Source: a virus. From it: a DNA stretch of 33,385 bases. The DNA is taken from the IMG/VR virus record IMGVR_UViG_3300025082_002804, positions 1-33,385 of that record. The stretch is one strand, 5' to 3'. The notes under the pieces were generated by a model, which saw only the letters and a program-made list of their open reading frames with translations, was not told the origin of the DNA and ran no database searches. A program made the translations under genes and the position numbers. Of the stretch, positions 16,039 through 30,712 are shown piece after piece (the first letter of the stretch is position 1; the number at the start of each line of letters is the position of its first letter).

Positions 16039-16401
16039 TTAATCTCCTTTCACTATTCTATAGCTGTCTTCATCAAAGTGCTGCGTTGAAAATTCGAATA
16101 ATTCAGTATCTTCTAACGCTATCATCTGATGTTTAAGCCCGGTATAAACATGGAAATTATCGCCCGGGCCCAGGATAATTTCATTTGCTGTTTCTAGGTC
16201 ATCGTTATCAGAATACTTTACTAATAACTTCCCCGACTGCATGTAGAATACCTCATCTTTAATCTTGTGATAGTGCCACGAGCACCGGTGATCCTTCACA
16301 AAATAAAGCAGTTTCCCACAATATTGTTCGCAGTTTACAATCCACTTTTCGAATCCCCATCCTTTGGGGACAAATTTAATCGAGTGCGTTGAAGAAGTCA
16401 T
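16039..16401 (-). CDS. Cupin, sugar-isomerase/epimerase type
   Basis: The 120-residue product is a single cupin domain. Metal-binding residues are visible: H43 and H45 in SWHYHKIKDEVFYMQSG, E50, and H91 after a GPGDNFHVYTGLKHQ turn. The layout, with KPWG-like VPKGWGFEKW at 11-20, resembles cupins of sugar metabolism such as the mannose-6-phosphate isomerase type and WxcM-like proteins. The substrate cannot be told from sequence. It overlaps the 3' end of the HAD phosphatase gene by 26 nt and is the last gene of the glycan cassette, so it most likely acts on a sugar phosphate or nucleotide sugar in that pathway. Confidence 0.82.
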   Translation of the reverse strand: MTSSTHSIKFVPKGWGFEKWIVNCEQYCGKLLYFVKDHRCSWHYHKIKDEVFYMQSGKLLVKYSDNDDLETANEIILGPGDNFHVYTGLKHQMIALEDTELFEFSTQHFDEDSYRIVKGD

Positions 16402-16702
16402 TATCCGTTATTCCTTTATCGTCTATATAGACATCGCCAGATGGCTTGCCTAAGTAAAGGGAATGATATTTAACTCCCCACGTGTGTAATTGTTCTTGTG
16501 TTAATTCAAAGAACTTGGCGTATGCAAAGGCGGATGAATTATTGCTTCGACCCATACCTCTTGCGGTGTGGAACACTATATGATGTCCCTCTTCATAAAG
16601 CTTGTTTATGGCCTTGATACGAGGCTTAATGGGAAGTGCTTGTGCATAGTCCCTATTCACCTGCGTACAAATCGTACCATCTATATCAAACACATATACC
16701 AT
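16376..16702 (-). CDS. HAD phosphatase, EcbF/BcbF capsule-biosynthesis type
   Basis: This 108-residue minimal HAD has all core motifs. Motif I is FDIDGT with nucleophile D6 and acid/base D8, motif II is the T46 in FHTARGMG, and motifs III/IV are K86 in GKPSGD followed by YIDDKG with D94/D95. The pattern matches the short capsule/LPS phosphatases of the EcbF/BcbF family rather than GmhB. There is no cap domain. The gene starts in a TAATG junction with the nucleotidyltransferase gene, and it may dephosphorylate the intermediate between kinase and nucleotidyltransferase steps, by analogy with GmhB in the ADP-heptose route. That role is inference from neighbours; the fold is clear. Confidence 0.85.
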   Translation of the reverse strand: MVYVFDIDGTICTQVNRDYAQALPIKPRIKAINKLYEEGHHIVFHTARGMGRSNNSSAFAYAKFFELTQEQLHTWGVKYHSLYLGKPSGDVYIDDKGITDNDFFNALD

Positions 16703-17082
16703 TACATTTTTTCCAATATATTTGTGGTGGAGTACCCGTCAACAAAATTAAAGATTTTTACTTCCGCAAGGTCGTTGCCGACTACATCTTCTTGCTGGTA
16801 ATCTCCACCTTTGACTACTATATCAGGTTTTACTTTTTTTATTAACTCATAGGGAGTTTCCTCATCAAATATCACCACTTCGTCTACAAACCTGCAAGCC
16901 TCTAAAATTAACTGTCTATCAGTTTCATTATTGTAGGGTCGGCTTTCGCCCTTTAATTGTTTGACGCTCTGATCACTATTGAGCCCCACCACCACTCTTC
17001 CCAAGGAATGACAATACCGCAATAACTCGACGTGTCCTCGGTGGAGGATATCGAAACAACCATTAGTGAAAATTACTGGCAT
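16702..17082 (-). CDS. HldE C-domain-type sugar-phosphate nucleotidyltransferase
   Basis: The 126 residues form one cytidylyltransferase-like domain. Visible motifs are FTNGCFDILHRGHVELL with the H-x-G-H residues H14 and H17, NSDQSVKQLKG, and the closing GYSTTNILEKM with S118-T120 that grips the nucleotide. In HldE and split HldC/RfaE proteins this domain transfers AMP to D-glycero-beta-D-manno-heptose 1-phosphate. Here it is a stand-alone protein, with the kinase partner encoded two genes upstream. The nucleotide (ADP, CDP or GDP) and the sugar are not certain. It overlaps the start of the HAD gene by one base and the upstream SDR by 10 nt. Confidence 0.85.
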   Translation of the reverse strand: MPVIFTNGCFDILHRGHVELLRYCHSLGRVVVGLNSDQSVKQLKGESRPYNNETDRQLILEACRFVDEVVIFDEETPYELIKKVKPDIVVKGGDYQQEDVVGNDLAEVKIFNFVDGYSTTNILEKM

Positions 17083-17975
17083 TCTTTTTCCATGTATTTA
17101 TCGGTGTAAAATTTTACCACTGACTGTAAACCCATCTCTGGTCCTGCAAAGGGATAATCTTTTATTTTGTCGACTTCAAATTTCTTCGCTTCGGCGCCGA
17201 CATACTGACTGGTGTCAAACTTAATTTGATCAAATTCATAATCTACTATGTCACAAATCAATTCAGCGTATTCGCGAATCGAACAATCGTTTCCTGTTGA
17301 TAAATTGATTATCTCGTTTTCTTGATTTAAAGATTTTAAAATAATGTCAACTGCATCATCAATAAAAATTAGTTCTCTTCGCTGAAATCCAGTTCCCCAC
17401 AAGACTACAGGTTCCACCTTTTTATACTTTGCATCGCAAATTTTGCGCACCAGATCATAAATAAAGTGCTTATCCTTCTGGTCATAATCTGGACCATAAA
17501 GACACGACGGAACAAAAAACATATATTTCATTCCAAATTCTTCTGCTAAGGCTTTGAGCCCGACTAATAGCATCCTCTTCACCATGCCGTAGACTTCATA
17601 ACCACTCTCACAAGATCCTAAAAGATAATTGTCTTCAATACGAAGTGCATCATCGGAATAAGAACAACTAGACCCAAAGGTTACAAATTTAGCTTGAGGC
17701 TGCAGCTCTTTCCAATAATTGAGCACTGTAGAATTCATGCGCTCATTAATCAAAAATTGTTCACCTGGGTGTCGCTGGCAATATCCTCCCGCTTCCGTCT
17801 TCACAGCAAAGTGAAAGATATAGTCGTACTTGACTTGATTAAAATCATAAAGTTTGTCAGTTAGTAAATCACACGATTTAGAATTAAGGGCGGTAACCTC
17901 CATTTCCGCTTCGGCTTTTTTTATAAAGTGGCGCCCGAAAAAACCTGTAGCTCCCAGAACTAAAGCTTTCTGCAT
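17073..17975 (-). CDS. GDP-L-fucose synthase/ColC-like NAD(P)-dependent epimerase-reductase
   Basis: This is a 300-residue extended SDR. The Rossmann motif GATGFFG is at 8-14, the catalytic pair is Y129/K133 (YGMVK), and the C-terminal marker is LWGTGFQRRELIFIDDAVD. In E. coli GDP-fucose synthase the 3,5-epimerisation uses C109 and H179. The equivalent positions here are C104 in GSSCSY and H170 in DKHFIYDL, so both are kept and epimerase plus reductase activity is plausible. ColC of the GDP-colitose route belongs to the same group. Fit with a GMD-like and a ColD-like gene in the same operon supports the ColC reading, but fucose- or heptose-type epimerase-reductases remain possible. The start is at 17975 with GGAGG 4 nt upstream. 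Confidence 0.85.
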   Translation of the reverse strand: MQKALVLGATGFFGRHFIKKAEAEMEVTALNSKSCDLLTDKLYDFNQVKYDYIFHFAVKTEAGGYCQRHPGEQFLINERMNSTVLNYWKELQPQAKFVTFGSSCSYSDDALRIEDNYLLGSCESGYEVYGMVKRMLLVGLKALAEEFGMKYMFFVPSCLYGPDYDQKDKHFIYDLVRKICDAKYKKVEPVVLWGTGFQRRELIFIDDAVDIILKSLNQENEIINLSTGNDCSIREYAELICDIVDYEFDQIKFDTSQYVGAEAKKFEVDKIKDYPFAGPEMGLQSVVKFYTDKYMEKECQ

Positions 17976-18502
17976 TTTTCCTCCATGTCTTTCAGATAGA
18001 GGGCATTAGCATCTCTTTCTGAAAGCAACGGATTTTCAACACGCCAAGGGATCTCTAGCCAAGGGTCATCGTACCTCACCGAAATTTGATTGGCGGCGCC
18101 GCTATAGAGTTTAGTTTGTTTGTACGAGAAGATACAGCTATCGGACAGCACCAAATGACCATTGACACATCCCTCTGGAACCAGTACCTGATGACGATTC
18201 TTATCATTCAGGGCGTAAAGACGCGTGTAGAGATAACTCGGCGAATCGGCACGTAAGTCGGCCACGCCAAGCAAAATGCTACCGTAGAGGCATTGAATTA
18301 ATTTCTTTGTCTCAGGGTCTCCATGCATGCCGCGCAGAACATTCTTCCGAGAGATGGAAAAATCATCTTCCACAAACTTTTCATCAAGAAACGCATAATC
18401 CTTTACATTAAACGTATTGATATATTCTCCACGAACATCGTGAAAAACTTCGGGCTCAAACACCACAAGTCCCGCGATGTCTGGGTCTACTGTATATTTC
18501 AT
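17960..18502 (-). CDS. RmlC-like sugar 3,5-epimerase
   Basis: This 180-residue cupin-fold protein has RmlC's catalytic layout. The base is H60 in NVLRGMHGD, followed by K67 in ETKKLIQ, then DLRADSPSY, the acid tyrosine region YKQTKLY (Y127/Y133), DDPWLEIPW, and D164 in the closing LSERDA motif that pairs with the histidine. One difference is visible: the usual PxGFAHGF loop reads PEGCVNGHLVLSD, with Asn at the position normally His. Substrate could be a dTDP-, GDP- or other 4-keto sugar; Campylobacter capsule-heptose epimerases of the MlghB/DdahB type are also RmlC-like. No other dTDP-rhamnose gene is present in the window, so dTDP is unlikely. ATG overlaps the kinase stop; GGAGG lies 10 nt upstream. 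Confidence 0.85.
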   Translation of the reverse strand: MKYTVDPDIAGLVVFEPEVFHDVRGEYINTFNVKDYAFLDEKFVEDDFSISRKNVLRGMHGDPETKKLIQCLYGSILLGVADLRADSPSYLYTRLYALNDKNRHQVLVPEGCVNGHLVLSDSCIFSYKQTKLYSGAANQISVRYDDPWLEIPWRVENPLLSERDANALYLKDMEEKCRKL

Positions 18503-19260
18503 TCCTTTATTACCTCCTCCTCAAGCACGCTAACGCCGCGCTTTTGTACGACGCGGGTAGCACACTTGTTGGCAAATCTAATAGCCTCTAGAATATTATT
18601 AGATCGAACATATTCAACAGCGAGTCCGGATATGAAAGTATCCCCAGCGCCCGAGGTGTCCTTAATCTCTACCTTTGGGACTGGGAAAACTTTATCTTGA
18701 TAGTTGCAACCATTCGGTCCGGTCGTGATAATCATTCTTTCTACAATATCTTCTGTTAATTTGTGTTGGGTTCTCTCATATTCTACATCATTGATCTTAA
18801 TATAATCAATGTTTTTGCACCATGGTCCCAAGATCTTTTTCGTATCTAAAAAGGTTGTCTTTGCTTTTAAAGAAATCTTCTCAATATCCTCTTCGGTTAA
18901 AAATCCCTTATTATAATCTGAGATAACCACAACATCATAAGACTCAAAATCGTGCTTGTCAACATCACAACTTCCATATTTGTCTTCATTTTCATCAATT
19001 CTTAAAACAATGTAATTGGTGCGATAATCCACATAGCGAGTCTTGGTGATTTTTTCCCAGCTTGTATTGGTGCAAAGATCGACATGCATCTCGGGCGCTA
19101 TAGCAGAAACATTGTTATACACATTCCATGCCATTCCGCCATTCGTCTCGCGGGTTTTATTAGAATTAAAAACCGGTACCGGTGCCTCTGGGCACAAGCG
19201 CCTACTATCTCCGTATTGATATACATCCAAACAACTTTCGCCGACGATTAAGATTTTCAT
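18499..19260 (-). CDS. PfkB-family sugar kinase, HldE kinase-domain type
   Basis: The product has 253 residues, shorter than the HldE kinase domain (about 310). The start reads MKILIVGESCLDVYQYGDS followed by CPEAPVPVF, a wording characteristic of RfaE/HldE kinases. It then has NGGMAWNV (substrate loop) and the anion-hole motif GAGDTF with catalytic D207. HldE kinase phosphorylates D-glycero-D-manno-heptose 7-phosphate at C1. The stand-alone nucleotidyltransferase at 16702-17082 looks like the matching second half, so the two together resemble a split HldE. Without a GmhA-like isomerase in view the actual sugar may differ. The shortened middle, likely lacking some lid strands, is worth noting. 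The gene overlaps the RmlC-like start by 4 nt. Confidence 0.85.
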   Translation of the reverse strand: MKILIVGESCLDVYQYGDSRRLCPEAPVPVFNSNKTRETNGGMAWNVYNNVSAIAPEMHVDLCTNTSWEKITKTRYVDYRTNYIVLRIDENEDKYGSCDVDKHDFESYDVVVISDYNKGFLTEEDIEKISLKAKTTFLDTKKILGPWCKNIDYIKINDVEYERTQHKLTEDIVERMIITTGPNGCNYQDKVFPVPKVEIKDTSGAGDTFISGLAVEYVRSNNILEAIRFANKCATRVVQKRGVSVLEEEVIKE

Positions 19261-19263
19261 GGT

Positions 19264-20109
19264 TTACTCTTGTGGGGGTGCTGCCTTCCATTCGCGGGTA
19301 TAGTTTTCTCCTTGCCACAGCTCTTCGTAAGAATTATAGACCTTGGTGGGAAATCGTCTCTCCCAAACTTCCGGGGTGTCCTTCCAATTATCATAATCGA
19401 TTTTTAACCGATCGTTCTCTTTTCCCCACATTTCTCTAAAAATGGCAAGATCATGCAATACCATTGCATCGTGAATGGCACCATGATCTCCCTGGTGGTC
19501 TGGCCACCACGTCATATCCCCCACAGTCTCTGGAGAATAAACAATTTTTGAACCATTCCTCTGACATCTAAACATAAAGTCGTGAGTTGAGCTGTCCATG
19601 TATTCCCATCTACAATCAAATCCGCCCATCTCAAAGAAATGTTCTTTATGCATAACGGGCTCTGTGGCAAGTAGCCATGTTTGGTCAATCCCTCCCAGCT
19701 TAAATGCATCATTGAAGGAAGTACTCCAGTAATGATTGGGCTGTTCATGACCGCCCTCAGTATAAGTGCACTGCATAATGTCCTGCGGACCACACTCTTC
19801 ATTATATAAGTCTAAAGCCTTATCAAATGCATCTTCTCGATAGACAGTATCATCATTGCCAATAAAAATGAGTTTTCCACTCGTTTCTAAAATTCCAACC
19901 TGAACGGCTCTGCTCACATTTCCACGTTCTTTAACGTGTTTCACGTTTTCTACCCCTTGCAGTGTTGGGGGTAAATCAAAAGGTCCGCACAGCACCATTT
20001 CCCAGTTATAGTTTTTGCATGATTTCTGCAAACTCTTGTACATGTCATACCAGCGCGGGGTTCGAATCGCCGGAAAGAAAAAACTTATATCATATTTATA
20101 TTCACTCAT
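19264..20109 (-). CDS. Glycosyltransferase, GT-A fold (paralog 4 of 4)
   Basis: The 281-residue product belongs to a set of four related enzymes in the window. It has a GT-A start (DISFFFPAIRTPRWYDMYKSL), a NDD metal/nucleotide motif (FIGNDDTVY), GGFDCRWEYM, FMFRCQRNGS, and the shared C-terminal signature GDHGAIHDAMVLHDLAIF, then NWKDTPEVWERRF. The conserved central H-x-A-x-x-x-H-D in this signature is shared by the paralogs. Compared with them it differs in DAM for HAQ and has an extra 25-residue charged tail. The start has GAGAGG 5 nt upstream and overlaps the PLP dehydratase stop as ATGAGTGA. Donor and acceptor sugars are unknown, and no membrane anchor is visible. Confidence 0.83.
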   Translation of the reverse strand: MSEYKYDISFFFPAIRTPRWYDMYKSLQKSCKNYNWEMVLCGPFDLPPTLQGVENVKHVKERGNVSRAVQVGILETSGKLIFIGNDDTVYREDAFDKALDLYNEECGPQDIMQCTYTEGGHEQPNHYWSTSFNDAFKLGGIDQTWLLATEPVMHKEHFFEMGGFDCRWEYMDSSTHDFMFRCQRNGSKIVYSPETVGDMTWWPDHQGDHGAIHDAMVLHDLAIFREMWGKENDRLKIDYDNWKDTPEVWERRFPTKVYNSYEELWQGENYTREWKAAPPQE

Positions 20110-21274
20110 GGGTACCTCTCACAATCTTACAAATTTTGGCTACTTCTTCAATTGTTAACTCAGGATAGTTGGGCAAGAAGAAGCCGCACGTATGAATTCT
20201 ATTACTGACCTCGTCCTCAAATGCTGGGTATAAATCAGTCCAGAAAGGATGCAATCCTAAATTGCCGGCAGAGAAAATACGTGTCTCTACTCCATGCTCA
20301 ACCAGACGAGATACAATCTCGCGGCGGTGAGCGTTAGAATCGGCTAAGGCTCCAAAAGAAATAGAAACGGGAACATTATCTCCCCACTTCTGATAATCTA
20401 CATAACCCTCAAGGAACTGTGCATATGCAACGTGATTCTCATTACGGCGCTGGGATACCCAGATCGCCTTGTCTACCTGTCGCAAACCAACAAACGCCTG
20501 TAAGTCGGTCGATCGCAGATTAAAGCCAGGAACAAAAAAGGTGAAAGGCTTGTGAAAGTCATCAACGCCATGATCACGAATTAAAGTATCATATGCTGCT
20601 TGATCCAAGTCCTTAGCCCAGCCATGGCTTCGGAGCATTAACAGTGCATCATACAGTTCCTTGTCATCAGTATTAACCATGCCACCTTCAATGGTCGACA
20701 GCTGGTGTCCAAAATAGAAGGAGAAGGACGACATGTCGCCAACAGTGCCAACCATCGATCCGTCGCCATAAGCCGCTCCTAGAGCCGCACAGGCGTCTTC
20801 TAGGAGACAAAAACCATACTTCTCCTTTAGCTTAAGCAGGCGCTCTTTGTAGTGGGGCACACCCAGCACCTGAACAAAGATAACTGCGTCCGGGCGCTCT
20901 CGCTCGCAAACGGCTTCTAACTGGTCCAGATCGATGCCAAAGGTGTCGGGGTCGGCGCCTACCATAATGGGCTCCAAGCCAAATTGAATGGCGGGCGCAA
21001 TAGTAGTCACCCAGCCCACCGAAGGGACAACAATTTTTTTGTTTTTAATCCTGCCTGTCATCAAGGCGGCATAAATCATTAGCAAATTGGCAGAAGATCC
21101 GGAATTATTAAATACCGCGTGTTTGGTACCAATATAATTGGCCCACTTTGCTTCTACCTCTACAGTCACAGCACCTTTTGTAAGGCGCGGATAGCTCTTA
21201 AGCCAGTCGCACAAGGCATCGATGTCTTCTCCATTAATCGTTTCCTTTGCTAAGGGATAAATTATCTCACTCAT
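20102..21274 (-). CDS. DegT/DnrJ-family PLP sugar 3-dehydratase, ColD-like
   Basis: The fold is the DegT/DnrJ/EryC1/StrS aminotransferase fold, but the residue aligned with the catalytic Schiff-base lysine is His (H190 in SFSFYFGHQLSTIEGG). This Lys-to-His change is the signature of the 3-dehydratases ColD (GDP-4-keto-6-deoxymannose 3-dehydratase) and RfbH/E1. No Cys cluster follows, whereas RfbH carries [2Fe-2S] ligands, so the ColD type is favoured. A PLP-binding aspartate (D160 in LLEDACAALG) and the NSGSSAN phosphate loop are present. At 390 residues it is close to ColD (about 388). The frame extends 20 residues further upstream, but the ATG at 21274-21272 has GGAG 6 nt upstream and sits in an ATGAGTGA overlap, so I chose it. 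It likely makes a 3,6-dideoxy-4-keto sugar. Confidence 0.85.
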   Translation of the reverse strand: MSEIIYPLAKETINGEDIDALCDWLKSYPRLTKGAVTVEVEAKWANYIGTKHAVFNNSGSSANLLMIYAALMTGRIKNKKIVVPSVGWVTTIAPAIQFGLEPIMVGADPDTFGIDLDQLEAVCERERPDAVIFVQVLGVPHYKERLLKLKEKYGFCLLEDACAALGAAYGDGSMVGTVGDMSSFSFYFGHQLSTIEGGMVNTDDKELYDALLMLRSHGWAKDLDQAAYDTLIRDHGVDDFHKPFTFFVPGFNLRSTDLQAFVGLRQVDKAIWVSQRRNENHVAYAQFLEGYVDYQKWGDNVPVSISFGALADSNAHRREIVSRLVEHGVETRIFSAGNLGLHPFWTDLYPAFEDEVSNRIHTCGFFLPNYPELTIEEVAKICKIVRGTHE

Positions 21275-22049
21275 TGTTGTCTCCAAATCTACGCGTCCAT
21301 ACCTCTGGCGCTTCTTTCCAATTATTAATATCAAGCGTAATGCGATCTAAGCAAGTTGCTTCGTTCCAAATTTCTGCATATAGCGGCTGATCATGATCAA
21401 GCTGGGCATGATGAATAGGTGCGTGGTCTCCAGAAGTTCCCGGGAACTGTGTACACTCAAAAACTACGCCAGTAAGCTGTGCTTCCATTCCATCCAGCTG
21501 GGCTCTCGCGCCGAAATCTACGAATGCCATAGGGCATGCCTCAAACCTACAATCAAAGCCACCCAAATCTTTAAAGTACTGGGTCTGCAATATAACCGAG
21601 TTAAAGATTAGAAAATGATTAGGATAATGAGCCGACCGGACGGGGTCATGAGAGTTAATGCAATACATGTTGGCGTTGGGATCCCCCAGCCCATCATGAT
21701 CGCCCTCATTATACTGAGTCACCACACATTTTTTCTCTGCTTCCATCGCATCGAGCATGTCAATACATTGGGCGAGTTTTCCAGGCAAGAACCAACCATC
21801 ATCAGCAGTCCAAGTTAAGTAACGCCCTGAGGCTTCAAGCATGGAACGCTGCTGACAACGTGTGGGAGTACCAAAATCCTGAATACAAGATACGTTGTCT
21901 AGTCCCTCCAATTCATCAGGAAGATCTTCGTGGGGTCCACAAAAAATTAGCTCAAACGTGTAATCTCCCACCGACTCTACGATACTATCGTGCAGTCGCA
22001 GCCAATTATCATCTCTAATAGCGGTTAAACAAACCGATAAATCATACAT
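21267..22049 (-). CDS. Glycosyltransferase, GT-A fold (paralog 3 of 4)
   Basis: The 260-residue product shares the paralog layout: a beta-strand start (YDLSVCLTAIRDDNW), a CQQRSMLEASGRYLTWTADDGWF block with the acidic pair that binds metal/nucleotide, GGFDCRFEACPMAF, and the signature GDHAPIHHAQLDHDQPLYAEI then NNWKEAPEVWTRRFGD. The frame is open 13 residues further upstream, but the ATG at 22049 has AAGGAG 6 nt upstream and overlaps the previous stop by one base (TAATG). Its sugars are unknown. Compared with the paralogs it has an ordinary tail of four extra residues after the RRF, and no membrane region. Confidence 0.83.
   Translation of the reverse strand: MYDLSVCLTAIRDDNWLRLHDSIVESVGDYTFELIFCGPHEDLPDELEGLDNVSCIQDFGTPTRCQQRSMLEASGRYLTWTADDGWFLPGKLAQCIDMLDAMEAEKKCVVTQYNEGDHDGLGDPNANMYCINSHDPVRSAHYPNHFLIFNSVILQTQYFKDLGGFDCRFEACPMAFVDFGARAQLDGMEAQLTGVVFECTQFPGTSGDHAPIHHAQLDHDQPLYAEIWNEATCLDRITLDINNWKEAPEVWTRRFGDNNE
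21281..21284 (-). promoter_or_regulatory. Ribosome binding site deciding the ColD-like start
   Basis: GGAG lies 6 nt before the ATG at 21274 and sets that start rather than the longer open frame to 21334. It is inside the coding end of the upstream glycosyltransferase, so translation of both is linked. Confidence 0.7.
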
Positions 22050-22849
22050 TAAAATCTCCTTTTCCACACTTCTGGTGAACTCTTCCAATTGTCGAGGGCT
22101 ATCTCTATTCTACCAAGAGATGACGCGTCATTATAGATATTTCTGAAAAGGGGCTCATCATGTTCGATGTGCGCATAATGCACAGGAGCATGATCGCCCG
22201 TTATTCCCGGTGTATGAGTGCACACGAAAATGGGCTTTTCAAACATAAAATAGCGCGAGCCGTTTCGTTGGGTTCGCACCGCAAAATCCATATGTGAAAT
22301 TGTTGTTACTTCAAACATAGTGTCCCAGCCGCCAATCTTCTTCACATAGTCAGTCTTCATAAGTCCTACATTCAATATCCAAAAATCATCAGGGATATAA
22401 GTTGCTCTCAATCCTGCCGCATGGTTGATGCGATAATAAAAATCTTTAGATAACTCAGTTTCGCCAGTGGCATGAGCAACTCCCTCTTGGTTCTTCGCGC
22501 CCTCAAAATACTTGCAGGTAACAATATCTGTTTCCTCAGTGGCGTTCTTATTCCAAAAGTCCAAAATCTCCGTTAATTTATTTTTGAGGAAGACTCCATC
22601 ATCTGCACCCCACGTGACGAATTCGCCCTCACTATGAACAAGCCCAACCTGTTGGCACCGAGCAGGAGAACCTTTATCAACGATATGCTTAATATTATCA
22701 TACTGTTGAAGTTCTTCTGGAAGTTCCTTGTGGGGCGTCACAATGACAATCTCAAACGTATCGTTGAAAGAGCCTTGCACACTCTTGTAGAATGCGGGCC
22801 AATTAGCTTTGCGAATACCCGGTAATATAACTGATAACTTGGGAGCCAT
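22049..22849 (-). CDS. Glycosyltransferase, GT-A fold (paralog 2 of 4)
   Basis: The 266-residue product starts APKLSVILPGIRKANW and continues with VGLVHSEGEFVTWGADDGVF (acidic pair), KKIGGWDTMFE, FAVRTQRNGSRYF and the signature GDHAPVHYAHIEHDEPLFRNI then DNWKSSPEVWKRRF. It is closest to paralog 3 in the middle block. I chose the internal ATG at 22849 because it aligns with the paralogs; an in-frame GTG 14 codons upstream (22891) also exists but has no ribosome site. The Shine-Dalgarno at 22849 is weak or too close, so coupling to the previous stop, which ends 5 nt upstream, is likely. Confidence 0.8.
   Translation of the reverse strand: MAPKLSVILPGIRKANWPAFYKSVQGSFNDTFEIVIVTPHKELPEELQQYDNIKHIVDKGSPARCQQVGLVHSEGEFVTWGADDGVFLKNKLTEILDFWNKNATEETDIVTCKYFEGAKNQEGVAHATGETELSKDFYYRINHAAGLRATYIPDDFWILNVGLMKTDYVKKIGGWDTMFEVTTISHMDFAVRTQRNGSRYFMFEKPIFVCTHTPGITGDHAPVHYAHIEHDEPLFRNIYNDASSLGRIEIALDNWKSSPEVWKRRF
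22056..22061 (-). promoter_or_regulatory. Ribosome binding site deciding a glycosyltransferase start
   Basis: AAGGAG lies 6 nt before the ATG at 22049 and favours this start over the in-frame upstream codon at 22088. The start overlaps the previous stop by one base. Confidence 0.7.
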
Positions 22850-22854
22850 TCCTT

Positions 22855-23697
22855 CTACTCGTAATGAGGGGTGTACCCCTTCTGTTGACACATTTCAAGA
22901 TATGTCTGAGGAACTCCGGTGTCGCCGATATCCCCAAACCGTCTTCTCCATACTTTATCACATTTTTCATAGTTATTGTAGTCCAATTTGATACGATCCT
23001 CCCACAGTGAAGGAATGGTATACATCGTATTAAACACCGGTGTATCATGAGATATCTGAGCATGATGAATTGGAGAGTGGTCGCCCTCTTCCCCGGGAAA
23101 CCAGCTGGCAATACAGCAATGGACTGGGGAGAACTCTATCTTACCCCCAGACTTTTGGAGTCTGAACATAAAGTCATGAATTGGCTTATCCATGTATTCA
23201 AAGCTCTCACAATCAAATCCTCCAAGTTCTATAAAATAACTTTTATGCATAATACACTGATTTGCAATCTTCCACGACTGGTCGATGCCCGGGAGCCGGA
23301 AGTCGCCGTGCGTTTTAACTTCCCAATATTTTGTCTCCATAAGATTGCCGCCTTCGCCATAAATCATGGCCATAGCATCTTGAGTACCACATACTTCAAA
23401 AAACTTATCTAGCGACAAGTCTAAAGAGTCCTCAGCAAAGTGACAATCATCTACCGTTAAGAAGAATAAATCACTGTTGCACTTGGGAACTCCAATTTGT
23501 ACACAGCGCGGGACATTACCCAGGCTCTTAACAAGCAAGACATTGTCCTTCTCCTTTAGCTCCTCGGGCAAGTCAAAGGGACTAATGAAAATCATTTCCC
23601 ATGTATATTTCTTACATGCCTTTTGTGCACTTTCATATAAATTCAGCCAGTTAGGGGTTCGGATCCCCGGTATCACAATCGATAAATCAAATTTCAT
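22855..23697 (-). CDS. Glycosyltransferase, GT-A fold (paralog 1 of 4)
   Basis: The 280-residue product carries the same frame as its three paralogs: LSIVIPGIRTPNWLNLYESA, a VPRCVQIGVPKCNSDLFFLT block with the acidic pair VDD, GGFDCESFEYM, FMFRLQKSGGKIE, and GDHSPIHHAQISHDTPVF, then a NYEKCDKVWRRRFGD end. It lies closest to paralog 4 (same spacing of GIDQSWKIANQ). The extra C-terminal 20 residues include Cys-Gln-Gln-Lys. The start has GGAGG 8 nt upstream and overlaps the methyltransferase stop as ATGA. Cytoplasmic; donor unknown. Confidence 0.83.
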   Translation of the reverse strand: MKFDLSIVIPGIRTPNWLNLYESAQKACKKYTWEMIFISPFDLPEELKEKDNVLLVKSLGNVPRCVQIGVPKCNSDLFFLTVDDCHFAEDSLDLSLDKFFEVCGTQDAMAMIYGEGGNLMETKYWEVKTHGDFRLPGIDQSWKIANQCIMHKSYFIELGGFDCESFEYMDKPIHDFMFRLQKSGGKIEFSPVHCCIASWFPGEEGDHSPIHHAQISHDTPVFNTMYTIPSLWEDRIKLDYNNYEKCDKVWRRRFGDIGDTGVPQTYLEMCQQKGYTPHYE

Positions 23698-24239
23698 TTT
23701 GTAGCCTCCACATTCAAGCTCATCAGTTTTCCATTCACCTTGTCTAAGTGAGGATAATAGGTCTGAGAATAATCATCGATATAAAAATGCTCAGTATCTC
23801 TCCAGTTGTAACGATGGATATTAGAAAACCCTACGGCGCTTAAATCTTCTTTCAATTTTTTAAAGTCCCAGCCATTTTTATGATAATCATAGGGGTGCTT
23901 TTGGGATCCCCAGAATGTCGAGTGCAAAAGCCGCAGATCTCGATGATAATAGTAATGAGCAAAATGTGCTTCCATATCGGGGACAGCCAATCGCAGGACG
24001 CCCCCAGGCTTCAAAACTTCAAACCACCGTTTCAGGGCTGCATCTGCTTCCTTATAGTCTGCATGTTCTAAAGAATGGCACGCATAAATCAGATCAGCGG
24101 ATTCTGTTTCGAAGCTCTCCAGCTTAAAAATGTCGTCGATTACATCACAGCCTGTTTCAGGTCGGATATCTACATTGATAAAGTTGGGAATTTTTTTATC
24201 ATAACATCCCAAATTCAATTTTACTTGTCTATCGCTCAT
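23694..24239 (-). CDS. SAM-dependent methyltransferase (class I)
   Basis: The 181-residue protein has the class I methyltransferase order: motif I LNLGCYDKK (usual LDLGCG, here with Tyr for the last Gly), the acidic ribose-binding D24 after NVDIRP, then DVIDDI, motif IV DLIYACHSLEHAD and motif V VLKPGGVLRLAVPD. The C-terminal half has an unusual HYYYHRDLRLLHSTFWG segment. Target cannot be read from sequence; in O-antigen and capsule loci such enzymes methylate sugars or their substituents. It overlaps both neighbours by 4 nt, so it is embedded in the glycan operon. Confidence 0.85.
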   Translation of the reverse strand: MSDRQVKLNLGCYDKKIPNFINVDIRPETGCDVIDDIFKLESFETESADLIYACHSLEHADYKEADAALKRWFEVLKPGGVLRLAVPDMEAHFAHYYYHRDLRLLHSTFWGSQKHPYDYHKNGWDFKKLKEDLSAVGFSNIHRYNWRDTEHFYIDDYSQTYYPHLDKVNGKLMSLNVEATK

Positions 24240-25192
24240 TTCTTATTCCTATAGTGATTCAGCAAAAATTCAATACTATCCTCTAATGAATACCGCGGCT
24301 GCCAACCACTTGCATTCAAAAACTTAGTGACGTCAGGTACTTGAAGTGTGACATCCACTGGCCGTAGCAATTGCTTATCAACCATTGAGCGGATGGGAAC
24401 AGTCGATTGCTTCTTAAGCTGCTCTAAAAAGTCCCCCACCGTAATAATACTATTGCCACCGATATTATAGGGGGTTCCATACTCACATTTCTCGCAGGCA
24501 ATCCAATAGGTCTCCATTGCATCACGAACGTCAATCAAAGTACGCGTTGAATCCAGGTTACCATGGGTTAAAACGTCTCTTTCGCCTCGTTCGATCTCCA
24601 CAATCTTCTGTGCAAAGGCGCTTGAGAAGATGTCACCCCGTCGTGGATTAATATAAGCAAACATTCGAGTAATAATCACCTTCATTCCATATGAATGGAA
24701 ATAAGAACTGGCTATTTTCTCCTGTGTAAGTTTAGAAACAGCATAAATATTCACTGGTTGAATGGGATGAGTCTCCAAAATCGGTATATTCTCGGCTGCT
24801 ACGTTGCCATAAACCTCTGATGTTCCACAAAACTGGATTATAGGGTCCAAACCAACGATGCGAATTGCCTCAAATAGGTTAATTGTGTTGTTAATATTGT
24901 TCTGCAGCACCGCGATTGGATTAGAAAAGCAGACGTGAACGTTAGCATGTGCCGCTAAATGAAAAATATAGTCTGGCTTACAGGCTTCTAGGGCGCGGAT
25001 CGTCGCACTTAAGTCGTTAAGGTCACACTCGTGAAGTGTGATTTTGTCTCGAATTGCCTTCAAGTTGGCATTTGATGTAGTACTGTGCCAACGAGAGACA
25101 CCGTGAACGTCGAGATCTCCCTTCTCAACTAAGAATTCAGCTAAATGACTTCCACCTGACCCAGCGATGCCCGTAATTAAGGCTCGTTTCAT
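24236..25192 (-). CDS. GDP-mannose 4,6-dehydratase-like SDR
   Basis: The 318-residue extended SDR has the nucleotide motif GIAGSGG (8-14), the active-site triad region T124/E126 in CGTSEVYG and Y150/K154 (YAVSK), and a C-terminal element typical of the GMD/RMD group (LLRPVDVTLQVPDVTKFLNASGWQPRY). GMD converts GDP-mannose into GDP-4-keto-6-deoxymannose, the common precursor of fucose, rhamnose, perosamine and colitose, with the Thr/Glu pair specific to dehydratases. The Glu is present, so a dehydratase reading is favoured over the reductase RMD. It fits as first step before the ColD-like and ColC-like genes. The start has GGAG 6 nt upstream and overlaps the upstream glycosyltransferase stop by 4 nt. 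Confidence 0.87.
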   Translation of the reverse strand: MKRALITGIAGSGGSHLAEFLVEKGDLDVHGVSRWHSTTSNANLKAIRDKITLHECDLNDLSATIRALEACKPDYIFHLAAHANVHVCFSNPIAVLQNNINNTINLFEAIRIVGLDPIIQFCGTSEVYGNVAAENIPILETHPIQPVNIYAVSKLTQEKIASSYFHSYGMKVIITRMFAYINPRRGDIFSSAFAQKIVEIERGERDVLTHGNLDSTRTLIDVRDAMETYWIACEKCEYGTPYNIGGNSIITVGDFLEQLKKQSTVPIRSMVDKQLLRPVDVTLQVPDVTKFLNASGWQPRYSLEDSIEFLLNHYRNKK

Positions 25193-26191: not shown

Positions 26192-27127
26192 CTATAAAAA
26201 CCTATACTTTACATCATTATAATCGAACAGTTCCTTGCTCAGAAACATTCTCGTACGTATAAATTCCTTCAATCTCTCTGGTTCTTGAACCATTCCGTTC
26301 TCGTCGTATTTGGCAGGGTCATGATGTAAGACTCCCTGCATCTCTTCATAGCCAAATCCAGAAGCCAGCGCCTCCGGGTCGCGGCAGATTTCATAGATGT
26401 CGAGTCCGCCAAAAAGATTGTTCTTATTATCGCCTCTTGGTCCCGTATGATCAAACCCACATGTAGCGCCGTCAACGCTCTTGAGGTGCTCCGCTACCAC
26501 ATCCTTTAGAATCACCCACCGCGAGCTAACTGCTGCAGCCAGAAATGAAAAGATAGACTCAGTGCAATAGGCTACAAAGATATCCGGAATAATTTTATTA
26601 TCAAATGCTTTAAAGATATCATTGGAAAAAATCTGTGTGTGCAGATTGCAAGCTCTTCCCACAGGAATTACAAAATTCTCGTTCTCTACAAATCCATCGA
26701 CCCCAATCCATTGGGGGAACCCATTGTCATTACTCGCCTGGACGGTCACCATGCCGTAATCGCCCTCTTTGAATAAGTCATAAGCTTTGCTTAAAACGGT
26801 TCGATCCTGCCTGAAATTGATGCCTGAGTCGATATAAAGATATCCTTCGAACTCGCCATATTTCTCTACACATTTCGCCACGGTGTGATTAAAGCTTTGG
26901 TTAACAGTAATGCGATCATGAATCAAGTTGTAAGCGATACTTCGGCCGAAAGTAGCGACGAGCTTTTTAATAGTGCCGGCAGAATTGCCGCAGCTTGACA
27001 GTACCACCTCTACACCTTCCAAGTCTTGAGCAAGAATATTTTTAATACAATCGATATACCAGTCGACTGGCTCTCGTCCAGAAAAGCCACAAGTGTTATA
27101 GACAACTAAAAGCTTATTTTTCGCCAT
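26192..27127 (-). CDS. Glycosyltransferase-like protein (tandem paralog B)
   Basis: The 311-residue product is the second of the tandem pair. Blocks shared with copy A include LLVVYNTCGFSG, NQSFNHTVAKC, GEFEGYLYIDSGINF (the acidic site is weaker, Asp-Ser-Gly), IIPDIFVAYCTESIFSFLAAAV and LSKELFDYNDVKYRFL. I chose the ATG at 27127 because GGGG lies 6 nt upstream. The frame could also begin four codons earlier at 27139. The gene overlaps the E1-beta-like gene by 14 nt. Without a full DXD, activity may differ from copy A. Confidence 0.75.
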   Translation of the reverse strand: MAKNKLLVVYNTCGFSGREPVDWYIDCIKNILAQDLEGVEVVLSSCGNSAGTIKKLVATFGRSIAYNLIHDRITVNQSFNHTVAKCVEKYGEFEGYLYIDSGINFRQDRTVLSKAYDLFKEGDYGMVTVQASNDNGFPQWIGVDGFVENENFVIPVGRACNLHTQIFSNDIFKAFDNKIIPDIFVAYCTESIFSFLAAAVSSRWVILKDVVAEHLKSVDGATCGFDHTGPRGDNKNNLFGGLDIYEICRDPEALASGFGYEEMQGVLHHDPAKYDENGMVQEPERLKEFIRTRMFLSKELFDYNDVKYRFL

Positions 27128-27653
27128 AATAATCCCCATACTCTACTATCAATGTACTTTTACCATCAGTGCGCAAATAAGCTTTCTCATAAGCAGGGAA
27201 AATTTCCTCCGGCTCTTCCAAACGGATAACATCGATATTATTAGTCATCAGACGAAGTCCGTCGGTAAAGTCACCAACGTGCTGAGCCTGTGGGTGAAGT
27301 GGTCTCTCTGATCCAATCCCTGTGCGCACAATAACTTTGGGAACGTATTCACCATGGGAAAACTCAGGCATTCGATCTAGATGGTTAATCAGTTGATTCA
27401 TCGTTAAAAGGAGGAAATTCCACCTCGGATAAATACTAATAGGGACGGTCCCAGCAACAGCAAGACCATTTGTGATTCCCATCTGCATTTCTTCATCTAC
27501 CGGCATTTCTAACAGCTTGCTCGGATCAATATCCTTAAGCGTATTAGTCATGGCGGTTCCTTTATAAGCTACGGCTTGACCTAAAAACATTGTATCAGGC
27601 TGGGATCCCAGAAAGTCCATGGACCTTTTTAGTTCTTCAAAATATTTACCCAT
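27114..27653 (-). CDS. TPP enzyme, E1-beta-like pyrimidine-domain subunit
   Basis: The 179-residue subunit covers only the pyrimidine-binding domain of an E1-beta-like protein. Shared features are MPVDEEMQMGITNGLAVAG with the TPP-activating Glu (E54/E55), PISIYPRWNFLLLTMNQLIN, KVIVRTGIGS, and LHPQAQHVGDF (usually AAQHSQ). It lacks the C-terminal transketolase_C domain of ordinary E1-beta (about 325 residues). It starts 1 nt after the E1-alpha-like stop (TAAAATG) without a good ribosome site, so the two are made in a coupled fashion. I infer a heterodimer or heterotetramer with the product of 27655-28266. It belongs to the glycan cassette, where such pairs may transfer two-carbon units to keto-sugars. 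Confidence 0.8.
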   Translation of the reverse strand: MGKYFEELKRSMDFLGSQPDTMFLGQAVAYKGTAMTNTLKDIDPSKLLEMPVDEEMQMGITNGLAVAGTVPISIYPRWNFLLLTMNQLINHLDRMPEFSHGEYVPKVIVRTGIGSERPLHPQAQHVGDFTDGLRLMTNNIDVIRLEEPEEIFPAYEKAYLRTDGKSTLIVEYGDYYGEK

Positions 27654-27654
27654 T

Positions 27655-28266
27655 TTAAAATTGCACCCTTATTCCTGCGCCGGCATGTGGATATTTATCC
27701 AGTACATATTTGTAATAAGTGACATAATCATCGTTGACTCCTTCGTAAGTCAACACTTCCTGGTTCCAGGTAGCGCGGGTATCGGTACACACTGATTTGC
27801 CATTATCCTCAACAATAAAGTGAATTGGCAGCTCATGATTTCGCGAATACTTAATACATTCATGCGCCATGCCTGTTTCAGAAGTCATGTCTCCCATAAA
27901 ACAGTAAACCTTATTAGTGCCACCCTTGCGCTTGATATCAAGAGCAATTCCAGTCGCGATTGGTAATACACCCGTAACAATTCCGGAAGATAGTACTCTA
28001 TACTCTTTGAAGCAAAGCGAAATTGAGCGCCCCTTTAAAATAGCTGCTTTTAATTCATCTTTCGGAACACCTTTTAAAAGGCACTGATAGTGACTACGCC
28101 ATGAACATAAAACCCAGTCCTCGGGACCGATATCGTGTTTACGAAAAACCTCTATTACTTCTTCTTCATTGCTATCATATAAGTGGACAGGCGCCATAAT
28201 TTGAGCGTTATTAAAACAATCCGCTATCTCATTCTCATATTCCACAAGTTCTTCTTTGGTGTACAC
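27655..28266 (-). CDS. TPP enzyme, E1-alpha-like subunit
   Basis: The 203-residue subunit resembles the TPP pyrophosphate-binding part of E1-alpha. It has CSWRSHYQCLLKGVPKDEL, GIVTGVLPIATGIALDIKRKGG, and the metal/TPP motif GDM at 125-127 (usually GDG) with DN at 154-155 (usually NN). It is short compared with the 320-370 residues of pyruvate dehydrogenase E1-alpha. The start is a GTG at 28266 with GGAG 6 nt upstream; no ATG fits better. It carries no lipoyl or E2/E3 partner in the window, arguing against a dehydrogenase complex. The two-subunit form recalls AviB1/AviB2-type enzymes that attach two-carbon branches to sugars. Confidence 0.82.
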   Translation of the reverse strand: MYTKEELVEYENEIADCFNNAQIMAPVHLYDSNEEEVIEVFRKHDIGPEDWVLCSWRSHYQCLLKGVPKDELKAAILKGRSISLCFKEYRVLSSGIVTGVLPIATGIALDIKRKGGTNKVYCFMGDMTSETGMAHECIKYSRNHELPIHFIVEDNGKSVCTDTRATWNQEVLTYEGVNDDYVTYYKYVLDKYPHAGAGIRVQF

Positions 28267-28267
28267 A

Positions 28268-29776
28268 TTAATCTCCTAACAGCTTTCGCTTAAGTGTATG
28301 TTTGCTCATCTCTACTATATCATCATGGACTTTGTCACCAAATTTGGATTTGATAAGGTGCAAATATTTGTCGCTTTGGTGATAGGTATCAAATGCCTTG
28401 TCTCTAAAGGCCAAAACCTCAGCCGATGACAAAAAGTTAGTGCGCAAAGGCGAAGTTTCATAAGAATGTTGGGAAAATCCCACATAGCTATTGGGCAATT
28501 CCCATTTATGTAATAACGCGTCCATATACAGCTTTGATCCTGGGTATGCCATCGTTGAATAAAAGTTGCCGAATTCGCAATTCAAATCCATCGCCAAATC
28601 CAGTGTCTCTTGCATGGTATCGTGGTCGTCTTCCGGTAATCCAAAAATATAATTACCTATAACATTAATCCCAGCATCCTTAATTTTTTTAACCAAATCT
28701 TGAATGTTAACACTCGTAAATTTTCCTTTTACAACATCTTTTCGAACAACGGCATTGCCCGACTCGATCCCCAAAGCTAACCATTCTACGCCAGCTTCTT
28801 TGAGTGGCTTTAGATATTCCTCTTTGACCGTGTCTATTCTTGCATAAGCCCAAATATTGAAATCATAATTACGCTCTTTTATCAACTGACAAAGTGTCAG
28901 AAAATGACTCTTATTGAGCACAAACATCTCATCCGCTATCTTGACATTGCGGATGCCCCTGTTATGAATTTCCTCAAACTCATTGATGATAAAGTTAGGG
29001 TCCCAGAACCTAAACTTATTTCGCCCATAATCCCAATTTTCTACATTGTTATTTCCAAACGGGGCATTGATGCAACAGAAGCTGCACTGAAATGGACATC
29101 CCAAACTGGTATATAGCGATGCGAAGGGGGATCGCTCGCCGCCATTACTCATGGCGTGCCAATTGGAGGTGCGATACTTGTCCATGGGAAGTAAATCCCA
29201 TGCCATTCCAGGCAACTCTGTTTCTAAATCTTTTTGATCTACAATTGGTGCAGGCTTGGTAAATCTGATGCGACCATCGTCGCGATACCATAAGCCTGGA
29301 ACCTTTTCTAGGTCGGAGGCTTTGTTCATATCTAGGTTCAACAGAGATGTGATTGTATACATTCCCTCACCCTGACAAACGAAGTCAACACTTTCACGTG
29401 TAATCGTCTGTCGAGATACAGCCGACGGGTGCAGTCCCAGCAGCAGAACCTTAGACTCAATTTTTTCTTCTTGTAGTTTCTTGCATAGTAATGAGGCTCC
29501 ATGCATATTCTGAGTAGATGCCGAAGGCTGCTGACCATAGACTACAATAGCAACCAATTTTGTATCATACTCTAAAATTGCCTGAGCGCTGGACGCCACA
29601 TCATGTTGCTCAGCCTCACAATCCAGAATTGCGACTGAATGCCCCTTCACTCGGACATGGTTCGCCAGTAAAGCCGCCCAGATGGGAGGCTCGATCGCTG
29701 AATATTTATTGCTCAGGGACTGGTATACAAACGGTGCACCATTTGGGTGAACAAATAAAACATCTACTTTCTTCAT
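28268..29776 (-). CDS. Radical SAM enzyme with B12-binding-like N-terminal domain
   Basis: The 502 residues contain an N-terminal Rossmann-like domain (1-145) as in B12-binding radical SAM proteins, though the base-off D-x-H-x-x-G motif is not seen. The radical SAM domain follows, with the cluster ligands C227, C231 and C234 in TSLGCPFQCSFCCINAP (C-x3-C-x2-C). Later landmarks are DEMFVLNK, NIWAYARID, GIESGN and IFGLPEDD, all usual for the family. Class B enzymes of this sort methylate unreactive carbons, but many relatives have other reactions. Within a sugar cassette it could methylate, epimerise or dehydrate a sugar. Substrate unknown. The start has AGG 8 nt upstream. Confidence 0.85.
   Translation of the reverse strand: MKKVDVLFVHPNGAPFVYQSLSNKYSAIEPPIWAALLANHVRVKGHSVAILDCEAEQHDVASSAQAILEYDTKLVAIVVYGQQPSASTQNMHGASLLCKKLQEEKIESKVLLLGLHPSAVSRQTITRESVDFVCQGEGMYTITSLLNLDMNKASDLEKVPGLWYRDDGRIRFTKPAPIVDQKDLETELPGMAWDLLPMDKYRTSNWHAMSNGGERSPFASLYTSLGCPFQCSFCCINAPFGNNNVENWDYGRNKFRFWDPNFIINEFEEIHNRGIRNVKIADEMFVLNKSHFLTLCQLIKERNYDFNIWAYARIDTVKEEYLKPLKEAGVEWLALGIESGNAVVRKDVVKGKFTSVNIQDLVKKIKDAGINVIGNYIFGLPEDDHDTMQETLDLAMDLNCEFGNFYSTMAYPGSKLYMDALLHKWELPNSYVGFSQHSYETSPLRTNFLSSAEVLAFRDKAFDTYHQSDKYLHLIKSKFGDKVHDDIVEMSKHTLKRKLLGD
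28273..28277 (-). promoter_or_regulatory. Ribosome binding site supporting a GTG start
   Basis: AGGAG lies 6 nt before the GTG at 28266 of the E1-alpha-like gene, which supports a non-ATG start. Confidence 0.65.
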
Positions 29777-29785
29777 ATAAGTTAC

Positions 29786-30712
29786 CTAATAATTTGCATA
29801 CCACGGTGATTCGATGATCGAATATGCATTAACAAGCTGTTTAATGCCTTGATCTAAATCGTAATCACATGCAAACCCCTTTTTATAAATTTTTTCACTG
29901 CTTACAATATAATCCCGAGTATCGGGATCGCTTGTGAACTCTGCTCTGATGATTTCTAATGGAAGATGGTTCTGAATAACCTTGGCTAATTGAAGCTTAT
30001 TCATGTTGAGTGCATCATTTCCCACGTTAAATGTGTCATCAACACAGGTGTCCCAATTTTCAATAACAAACTTAAAAGCTTTGCAGACATCTTGAATGTG
30101 TACGTAATTCCTCATGAACTCGCATTCATACAATACTAGGATACGATCTCGTAACGTGCGCAGGACAAAATTGTTAACTAATAAATCAGTCCTCATTCTC
30201 GATGCCGGGCCGTATACTGTGGCTAATCGAAATGTAACACAGTTCTCTGCATTCCTATAAGCTTCTTCGGCATCCACCTTTGTGCGCCCATACAGCGACA
30301 CCGGATTTAAAGGAGACTCTTCCGTACGTACGGTTCCGTCTTCGCTCGTGCCGTACCCCGAATTGGTGCAAGGATACACGACTTTCTGTTCCGGGCGCTT
30401 ATTATCAGCAATCCACTGATTGATCTCATAATTGATCTCTACAGCAGCGCGTGGGTCTTGGTCACACAGCGGGAAGCCCACCAGCGCGGCGAGTGGGATA
30501 ATCACATCGCAGTCTTTCATTAATTCGCCTAGAAGCTTCGTGTTTCTTACATCACCTTTTACAAAAGTAAAATTAGGGCTCGTTGTATATCGAAGTAAGG
30601 ACGTCGGATCGTACATTAAATTGTCGATAACGACCACTTCATGATCCTCTATAAAATATTGAATTAATTCGCTTCCAATATAGCCAGCTCCGCCAGTGAT
30701 TAAAATTTTCAT
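29786..30712 (-). CDS. NAD(P)-dependent sugar epimerase/dehydratase (extended SDR)
   Basis: The 308-residue protein has the Rossmann motif GGAGYIG (7-13) and an acidic NAD-specific D30 after VVVID. The active-site element is TNSGYG (116-121) with the catalytic pair Y141/K145 (YGRTK). It continues with RLATVYGP, and the C-terminal part (NYVHIQDVCKAF, then DDTFNVGND) is as in UDP-glucose 4-epimerase-like SDRs. The active site lacks the Asp-Glu/Thr-Glu of 4,6-dehydratases at the equivalent position, so an epimerase or reductase is favoured. The precise sugar is not readable. It overlaps the FAD oxidoreductase stop by one base (TAATG). Confidence 0.8.
   Translation of the reverse strand: MKILITGGAGYIGSELIQYFIEDHEVVVIDNLMYDPTSLLRYTTSPNFTFVKGDVRNTKLLGELMKDCDVIIPLAALVGFPLCDQDPRAAVEINYEINQWIADNKRPEQKVVYPCTNSGYGTSEDGTVRTEESPLNPVSLYGRTKVDAEEAYRNAENCVTFRLATVYGPASRMRTDLLVNNFVLRTLRDRILVLYECEFMRNYVHIQDVCKAFKFVIENWDTCVDDTFNVGNDALNMNKLQLAKVIQNHLPLEIIRAEFTSDPDTRDYIVSSEKIYKKGFACDYDLDQGIKQLVNAYSIIESPWYANY

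Follow-up and report, generated by a model that had tools for sequence, protein, structure and literature searches.

A phage operon with a probable route from GDP-heptose to a 3-deoxy or 3,6-dideoxy sugar

The window considered here, the complete IMG/VR virus record IMGVR_UViG_3300025082_002804, is a linear fragment of 33,385 bases with its long genes of interest on the minus strand, where an operon of nucleotide-sugar and glycosyltransferase-like genes extends from about 33.4 to 16 kb. The operon probably includes a set of genes by which the phage would make a 3-deoxy or 3,6-dideoxy sugar from GDP-heptose, most likely a seven-carbon sugar, as in Campylobacter capsules, rather than six-carbon colitose, and the marine phage concerned probably uses it to alter the surface of its host. 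Gene content, catalytic residues, nearest families and conserved neighborhoods are seen directly, and from them we infer substrate, step order, product and biological use. Lipopolysaccharide (LPS) genes are a known feature of marine T4-like phages and the sugars made are largely unknown; the enzyme set of the window points to a specific substrate, GDP-heptose, and to a product class whose chemistry has been characterized in Campylobacter capsules.

The route would begin with oxidation at C4, in which either the C6 hydroxyl is lost through a DmhA-type 4,6-dehydratase or it is retained through a Cj1427-type short-chain dehydrogenase/reductase (SDR), whose L-2-hydroxyglutarate would be returned to 2-oxoglutarate by an adjacently encoded flavin adenine dinucleotide (FAD) oxidase. 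A DegT protein using pyridoxal phosphate (PLP) and glutamate would then remove the C3 hydroxyl, an RmlC-type epimerase would invert C5 and/or C3, and a GDP-fucose synthase (GFS)-like reductase would reduce C4, giving GDP-3,6-dideoxy-heptose, as expected of the Campylobacter HS:5 set, or GDP-3-deoxy-heptose (coordinates are in Table 1). The version with the dehydratase, a route of four enzymes, has been established for C. jejuni HS:5 (PMC10440746), and Cj1427 combined with a C3-dehydratase yields GDP-3-deoxy-4-keto-heptose in vitro (PMC10680097). If the proposal is right, the phage would have a natural counterpart of the latter route, known to date as an in vitro assembly, and the suggestion would be that phages change a terminal sugar of the surface in the course of infection, for instance to block other phages.

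Enzymes of the proposed route

An original prediction made from the sequence had assigned three of these genes, for the 4,6-dehydratase, the DegT protein and the GFS-like reductase, to a near-complete route from GDP-mannose to GDP-colitose. The three open reading frames are intact, on the minus strand and placed as it had them, and their families are as claimed at the level of Pfam (GDP_Man_Dehyd 1e-65, DegT_DnrJ_EryC1 9e-65 and Epimerase 2e-33, respectively), but the relationships to the colitose enzymes are distant. The dehydratase attains 141.7 bits on the gmd equivalog TIGR01472, for which the cut-off is 415, with LegB almost level at 138, and it is 33% identical to E. coli Gmd; for comparison the GMD of cyanophage ACG-2014f scores 555 bits and those of the related viral loci L007 and L019 score 394.7 and 381.6. 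Its best PDB match is a GDP-heptose 4,6-dehydratase. Among 399 Pseudomonadota it has 12 matches, nine of which score best to 7us5 among the references, with 48-53% identity, and most of these adjoin HddA-type kinases, HddC-type transferases or GmhB-HddC fusions. The closest bacterial relative, at 54% identity, is in a 1.2 Mb genome (L056), where genes for a kinase of the HddA type, for a ColD-like protein (49% identity to ColD) and for a 46% homologue of the SDR of the window are nearby. In trees these two dehydratases group with 7us5 (support 95/93, and 92/89 once long branches were removed), the GMD clade (100/99-100/100) excludes the window protein, and placing it alone with GMD is rejected by the approximately unbiased test (p-AU 0.0096). 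The heptose-type placement may be considered good but not final. Identity as RMD is disfavored by the presence of the PRRG and RWH loops, which RMD 2pk3 lacks.

The SDR aligns over its full length with PDB 6vo6 and 6vo8 (E 1e-86, 48% identity, 309 columns to 6vo6), which we take to be Cj1427, the GDP-heptose C4-dehydrogenase, the entry being titled ‘putative sugar-nucleotide epimerase/dehydratase’. With Thr116-Asn-Ser, Tyr141 and Lys145 in its active site it is a probable C4-dehydrogenase of this type, and a 4,6-dehydratase function is rejected since Thr-Asn-Ser has no acidic residue. In the phage collection its matches reach 31% identity at best. Cj1427 reoxidizes its NADH with 2-oxoglutarate, so producing L-2-hydroxyglutarate (PMC10680097). 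The FAD oxidase gene overlaps that of the SDR by one base, and its product matches the L-2-hydroxyglutarate oxidase model NF008726 with 262 bits (cut-off 299) and PDB 3dme at 1e-71; such a neighbor fits the Cj1427 co-product and gives indirect support to a putative 2-oxoglutarate-dependent role for the SDR.

The closest solved relatives of the DegT protein are ColD entries, with ColD/WbdK 2gms at the top (3e-52). Its His190, invariant across the aligned viral relatives, corresponds to ColD His188, a histidine at the PLP-lysine position, in place of which mutant ColD entries that are also matched have N or K. The protein should be a PLP C3-dehydratase of the ColD mechanistic class. An aminotransferase is ruled out by the histidine at the lysine position, and an RfbH/CDP route by the absence of Fe-S cysteines, the protein being without the [2Fe-2S] cysteine cluster of an RfbH-like protein in the huge phage LR756502 (L002). 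That phage (LR756502.1) has a GFS-DegT pair, its second DegT, with the RfbH-like cysteine cluster, being 7 kb further on, and a Cj1427-type SDR of 31% identity about 20 kb away. The window protein is 29% identical to E. coli O55 ColD, in contrast to the C. jejuni heptose C3-dehydratases, which are 62-67% identical to two characterized GDP-hexose C3-dehydratases (PMC10440746), and because of this latter closeness similarity alone cannot separate hexose from heptose for DegT. In the tree it falls outside the ColD clade (100/99) and near DegTs of Cj1427-type clusters.

The top three PDB matches of the RmlC-fold protein are C. jejuni GDP-4-keto-heptose epimerases, 8dcl and 8dak, both GDP-D-glycero-4-keto-D-lyxo-heptose-3-epimerase, and 7ani, DdahB. 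The catalytic His, Tyr and Lys of DdahB/MlghB-type epimerases are found as His60, Tyr127 and Lys67. In DdahB, modeling led to the proposal that His123 binds the C7 hydroxyl, with Asn121 at O4 (PMC7949155); the window counterparts are Asn114 and His116, positions occupied by His and Phe in E. coli RmlC, and the Asn/His pair is kept in all 10 viral RmlCs read at these positions as well as in those of four bacterial DmhA-type loci.

The GFS-like protein has GDP-L-fucose synthase 7ll6 as its top PDB match (1e-22), scores 122 bits on the GFS equivalog (cut-off 500; ColC itself is not among the scored proteins) and is 24-25% identical to ColC and Fcl. Its Cys104 and His170 do align with the GDP-fucose synthase epimerase dyad, as had been predicted, and Tyr129 and Lys133 complete the SDR triad. 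Its bacterial relatives are weak (26-34%), two of them being in Cj1427-type clusters (G107 and G050). Compared with the nearest virus, L004, the ratio of nonsynonymous to synonymous substitution rates (dN/dS) is 0.015 for DegT, 0.035 for RmlC and 0.078 for GFS, and with such strong purifying selection these genes are considered to be maintained.

Neighborhoods in viruses and bacteria

The viral comparison set comprises 18 loci whose DegT is 74-95% identical to that of the window, the near-duplicates L007/L008, L010/L011 and L017/L018/L020 included. An HldE-like kinase and nucleotidyltransferase are downstream of DegT in all 18, in most with the haloacid dehalogenase (HAD) phosphatase and cupin, and the PfkB kinase follows DegT in most of them. 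The Cj1427-type SDR, at 70-75% identity, is present in 10 of 11 related contigs, which is in all 10 that reach its position; the other, L004, ends 1 kb upstream of DegT. RmlC occurs in about twelve other loci, often immediately upstream of DegT. The 4,6-dehydratase is rare, with the window, L007/L008, L015 and L019 the only carriers, and all but the window have GMD plus GFS without RmlC; in the related viruses DegT is not a constant companion of GMD and GFS. The constant core of C4-dehydrogenase, C3-dehydratase, kinase and nucleotidyltransferase is therefore a better match to the in vitro GDP-3-deoxy-heptose route (PMC10680097) than to colitose. None of six related contigs tested has psbA, and so a cyanobacterial host is not supported. 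Two of the loci encode acetolactate-synthase-like thiamine pyrophosphate (TPP) enzymes of YerE-type architecture upstream of DegT (L005:5847-7685 and L006:2563-4428), in the place of the split E1-like halves of the window, and ketopantoate hydroxymethyltransferase is encoded by L005 and L013.

Among 16 bacterial loci picked by SDR similarity, and counted without a matched random control, HddA is present in nine, HddC or GmhB-HddC in eight, a TPP enzyme pair in 10 and a His-type DegT in seven, and in eight a B12 radical-SAM (S-adenosylmethionine) protein 42-49% identical to that of the phage is beside Cj1427-like genes. One locus, L110, has TPP halves 62% (E1-alpha-like) and 68% (pyrimidine-binding) identical to the phage halves beside hddA, hddC and Cj1427-like genes. 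Because such homologues recur in the bacterial SDR loci, the radical-SAM and TPP genes of the phage probably belong to the same pathway as the SDR. The recurrent Pseudomonadota cluster (L097-L112, L056), with Cj1427-type SDR, HddA, HddC, TPP halves, B12 radical-SAM, His-type DegT and sometimes a heptose-type RmlC and an Fcl-like protein, looks like an unstudied sugar pathway.

A scan of genome contigs with DegT gave a single close match, of 73-74% identity, on a metagenome-assembled Chlamydiia contig (JAAZZY010000021.1, L023:9998-11170), where the gene is on its own beside Lon, DnaJ and rhomboid genes, which suggests gene transfer. A profile search of the 399 Pseudomonadota with the viral DegT gave no matches at E 1e-70, a threshold too strict for this to mean absence.

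Known systems and other explanations

The C. jejuni HS:5/HS:11 GDP-3,6-dideoxy-heptose pathway (Ghosh 2023, PMC10440746) has, like the window, a 4,6-dehydratase, a PLP C3-dehydratase, an RmlC-fold epimerase and an SDR C4-reductase. The differences are the phage location, hddA not being found, and the extra Cj1427-type SDR, TPP and radical-SAM genes; further, the Cys/His dyad retained by the window reductase is missing from DdahC and MlghC, the heptose reductases of Campylobacter (PMC7949155). With the HS:2 Cj1427 route and the in vitro GDP-3-deoxy-heptose route (PMC10680097) the window shares SDR, C3-dehydratase and heptose-type epimerase, but HS:2 itself has no C3-dehydratase step and the combination has been described only in vitro with enzymes from two serotypes.

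Several observations weigh against a heptose product. A sister relationship of GMD with the dehydratases of the window and L056 is not rejected (p-AU 0.136); DdahB Ile56, which packs on C7, is Ser in the window, as in RmlC, and Ser or Thr in the viral relatives; and the Cys/His dyad of hexose GFS enzymes leaves room for a hexose. In L007, L015 and L019 the partner of the same DegT is a near-genuine GMD (382-395 bits in the two scored), and therefore DegT may accept a hexose. The 12 viral records searched gave no hddA-like gene, there being no positive control among them, so that GDP-heptose would have to come from the host, and the phage kinase and nucleotidyltransferase resemble the ADP-heptose enzymes HldE1 and HldE2, not HddA and HddC.

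It is conceivable, though on the unlikely side, that the operon is a mobile form of an uncharacterized bacterial pathway, met in several Pseudomonadota, in which C4 oxidation of GDP-heptose by a Cj1427-type dehydrogenase, C3-deoxygenation by a His-type DegT, C4 extension by the TPP enzyme and a B12 radical-SAM step would give branched 3-deoxy higher sugars of a new class, with the viruses swapping the front end, this being the Cj1427-type SDR alone, a DmhA-type dehydratase, or GMD with GFS.

GDP-colitose, to be formed from GDP-mannose by GMD, ColD and a bifunctional ColC-type C5-epimerase/C4-reductase, is improbable as the product, even though the operon does have the three enzyme types, with the ColD histidine in DegT and the Cys104/His170 dyad, and thus shares with E. 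coli O55 (Gmd, ColD, ColC) a C3-dehydratase with this histidine, a GFS-like reductase and an SDR 4,6-dehydratase. What is supported of the original prediction is a 3-deoxygenating nucleotide-sugar route encoded by a phage, for which one operon has the 4,6-dehydratase, the GFS-type reductase and the His-type PLP C3-dehydratase. Its step from GDP-mannose to GDP-colitose is not supported, with the dehydratase closest to the group of GDP-heptose dehydratases and not within the GMD clade, DegT outside the ColD clade, and identities to the O55 enzymes of 33% for the dehydratase, 29% for DegT and just 24% for the GFS-like protein. The heptose-type RmlC, superfluous for colitose, and the SDR 48% identical to 6vo6 would be left unexplained. 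Heptose, now favored as the starting sugar, was among the alternatives that the prediction itself had listed as speaking against it. In favor of colitose, a GMD near the cut-off and GFS, without RmlC, are beside the same DegT in L007, L015 and L019, and cyanophage ACG-2014f (L001, NC_026927.1 160958-164075) shows that phages can carry such a trio. A phage-borne supply had been thought striking, but a phage-borne trio of this kind is not unprecedented: ACG-2014f shares with the window a 4,6-dehydratase, GFS, His-type DegT and glycosyltransferases, but its GMD-GFS-ColD-type trio is contiguous and without RmlC, its GMD is genuine (66% to E. coli Gmd) and its GFS is 50% identical to Fcl. It is a better GDP-colitose candidate than the window and the strongest phage one met here. 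Its His-type DegT is annotated just as ‘aminotransferase’.

Quite improbable, too, is that the HldE-like kinase, HAD phosphatase and nucleotidyltransferase provide an ADP- or CDP-heptose-like sugar on whose 4-keto form DegT acts. DegT is the most constant partner of this cassette in the viral loci, and in L006 an HldD-like SDR immediately follows the cassette, but the dehydratase, epimerase and SDR are each nearest to GDP-specific enzymes, and in the stretches read of P-SSM2, P-TIM68 and S-SM2 the cassette is without DegT and so can work alone.

A yersiniose-type branched sugar, heptose or hexose, in which, after C3-deoxygenation, C4 would be extended with two carbons by the TPP enzyme, as is done by YerE in yersiniose (PMC4753412), and the B12 radical-SAM enzyme would modify the branch further, is very doubtful, since, for all that the E1-alpha/E1-beta halves and radical-SAM gene are within the operon, that L005 and L006 have their TPP enzyme upstream of DegT and that bacterial Cj1427-type clusters combine TPP, radical-SAM and His-type DegT, the two steps are deduced from neighborhood only, the genes could supply precursors instead, the E1 pair is missing from L010 and L013, and the TPP enzyme and the GFS-like C4-reductase would be competitors for one ketone.

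The LPS clusters of two kinds of T4-like marine phages, cyanophages and pelagimyophages, the latter with LPS genes that include rfaE (PMC7029224), resemble the window in having, in P-SSM2, P-TIM68 and S-SM2, the HldE-like kinase and nucleotidyltransferase, HAD, cupin, epimerases and glycosyltransferases. Phage LPS sugar clusters are thus already known, and it is the heptose-type 3-deoxygenating variant that appears new. The window HAD phosphatase and cupin are matched by PSSM2_311 and PSSM2_312 of P-SSM2 (L034:6719-7063 and 7044-7400), and the labels ‘phosphoheptose isomerase’ and ‘cysteine dioxygenase’ given to such homologues in cyanophages are probably wrong.

Other genes of the window

Table 1. 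Predicted features of the operon, by position in the window
Feature	Position	Strand	Residues or matches
PLP-dependent sugar C3-dehydratase, DegT fold	20102..21274	-	ColD-type His190, without Fe-S cysteines
NDP-sugar 4,6-dehydratase, GDP-heptose (DmhA) type over GMD	24236..25192	-	Thr124/Glu126, Tyr150, Lys154, PRRG present
RmlC-fold epimerase, GDP-4-keto-heptose type	17960..18502	-	His60, Lys67, Asn114, His116, Tyr127, Asp164
GFS-like C4-reductase, possibly epimerase too	17073..17975	-	Cys104/His170, Tyr129, Lys133
Cj1427-type SDR, probable GDP-heptose C4-dehydrogenase	29786..30712	-	Thr116-Asn-Ser, Tyr141, Lys145
FAD oxidase, L-2-hydroxyglutarate-oxidase-like	30712..31818	-	NF008726, PDB 3dme
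B12-binding radical-SAM enzyme	28268..29776	-	Pfam B12-binding and Radical_SAM
TPP enzyme, E1-alpha-like half, GDM...N motif	27655..28266	-	Pfam E1_dh 5e-13
TPP enzyme, pyrimidine-binding half	27114..27653	-	Pfam Transket_pyr 6e-7
PfkB kinase, HldE-domain-1-like	18499..19260	-	TIGR02198 117 bits, cut-off 345
Nucleotidyltransferase, HldE-domain-2-like	16702..17082	-	TIGR02199 160.5 bits, cut-off 181.5
HAD phosphatase, EcbF/BcbF-like	16376..16702	-	TIGR01689 4e-10
Small cupin of kinase-nucleotidyltransferase cassette	16039..16401	-	Pfam Cupin_2 3e-7; 70-87% in related viruses
SAM methyltransferase	23694..24239	-	Pfam Methyltransf_11 2.5e-7; adjoins DegT in L005, L007, L015, L019
Four paralogous glycosyltransferase-like genes around DegT	19264-20109, 21267-22088, 22049-22891, 22855-23697	-	Presumed assignment

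Besides the four around DegT there are further paralogous glycosyltransferase-like genes at 25189-26184 and 26192-27139, making two paralogue groups in all, both present in related viruses; neither group has a Pfam match at E<=1e-3, and a nucleotide search of the glyco-region against phages gave zero matches. After the sugar operon come genes for a late-sigma-like protein, a large structural protein and gp25/gp6-type baseplate wedge proteins. A 2,432-amino acid protein is encoded at 4545-11843, between hub-like and gp25-like baseplate genes, and its sole match, to phrog_1493 close to the C terminus, is a weak, endolysin-like one.

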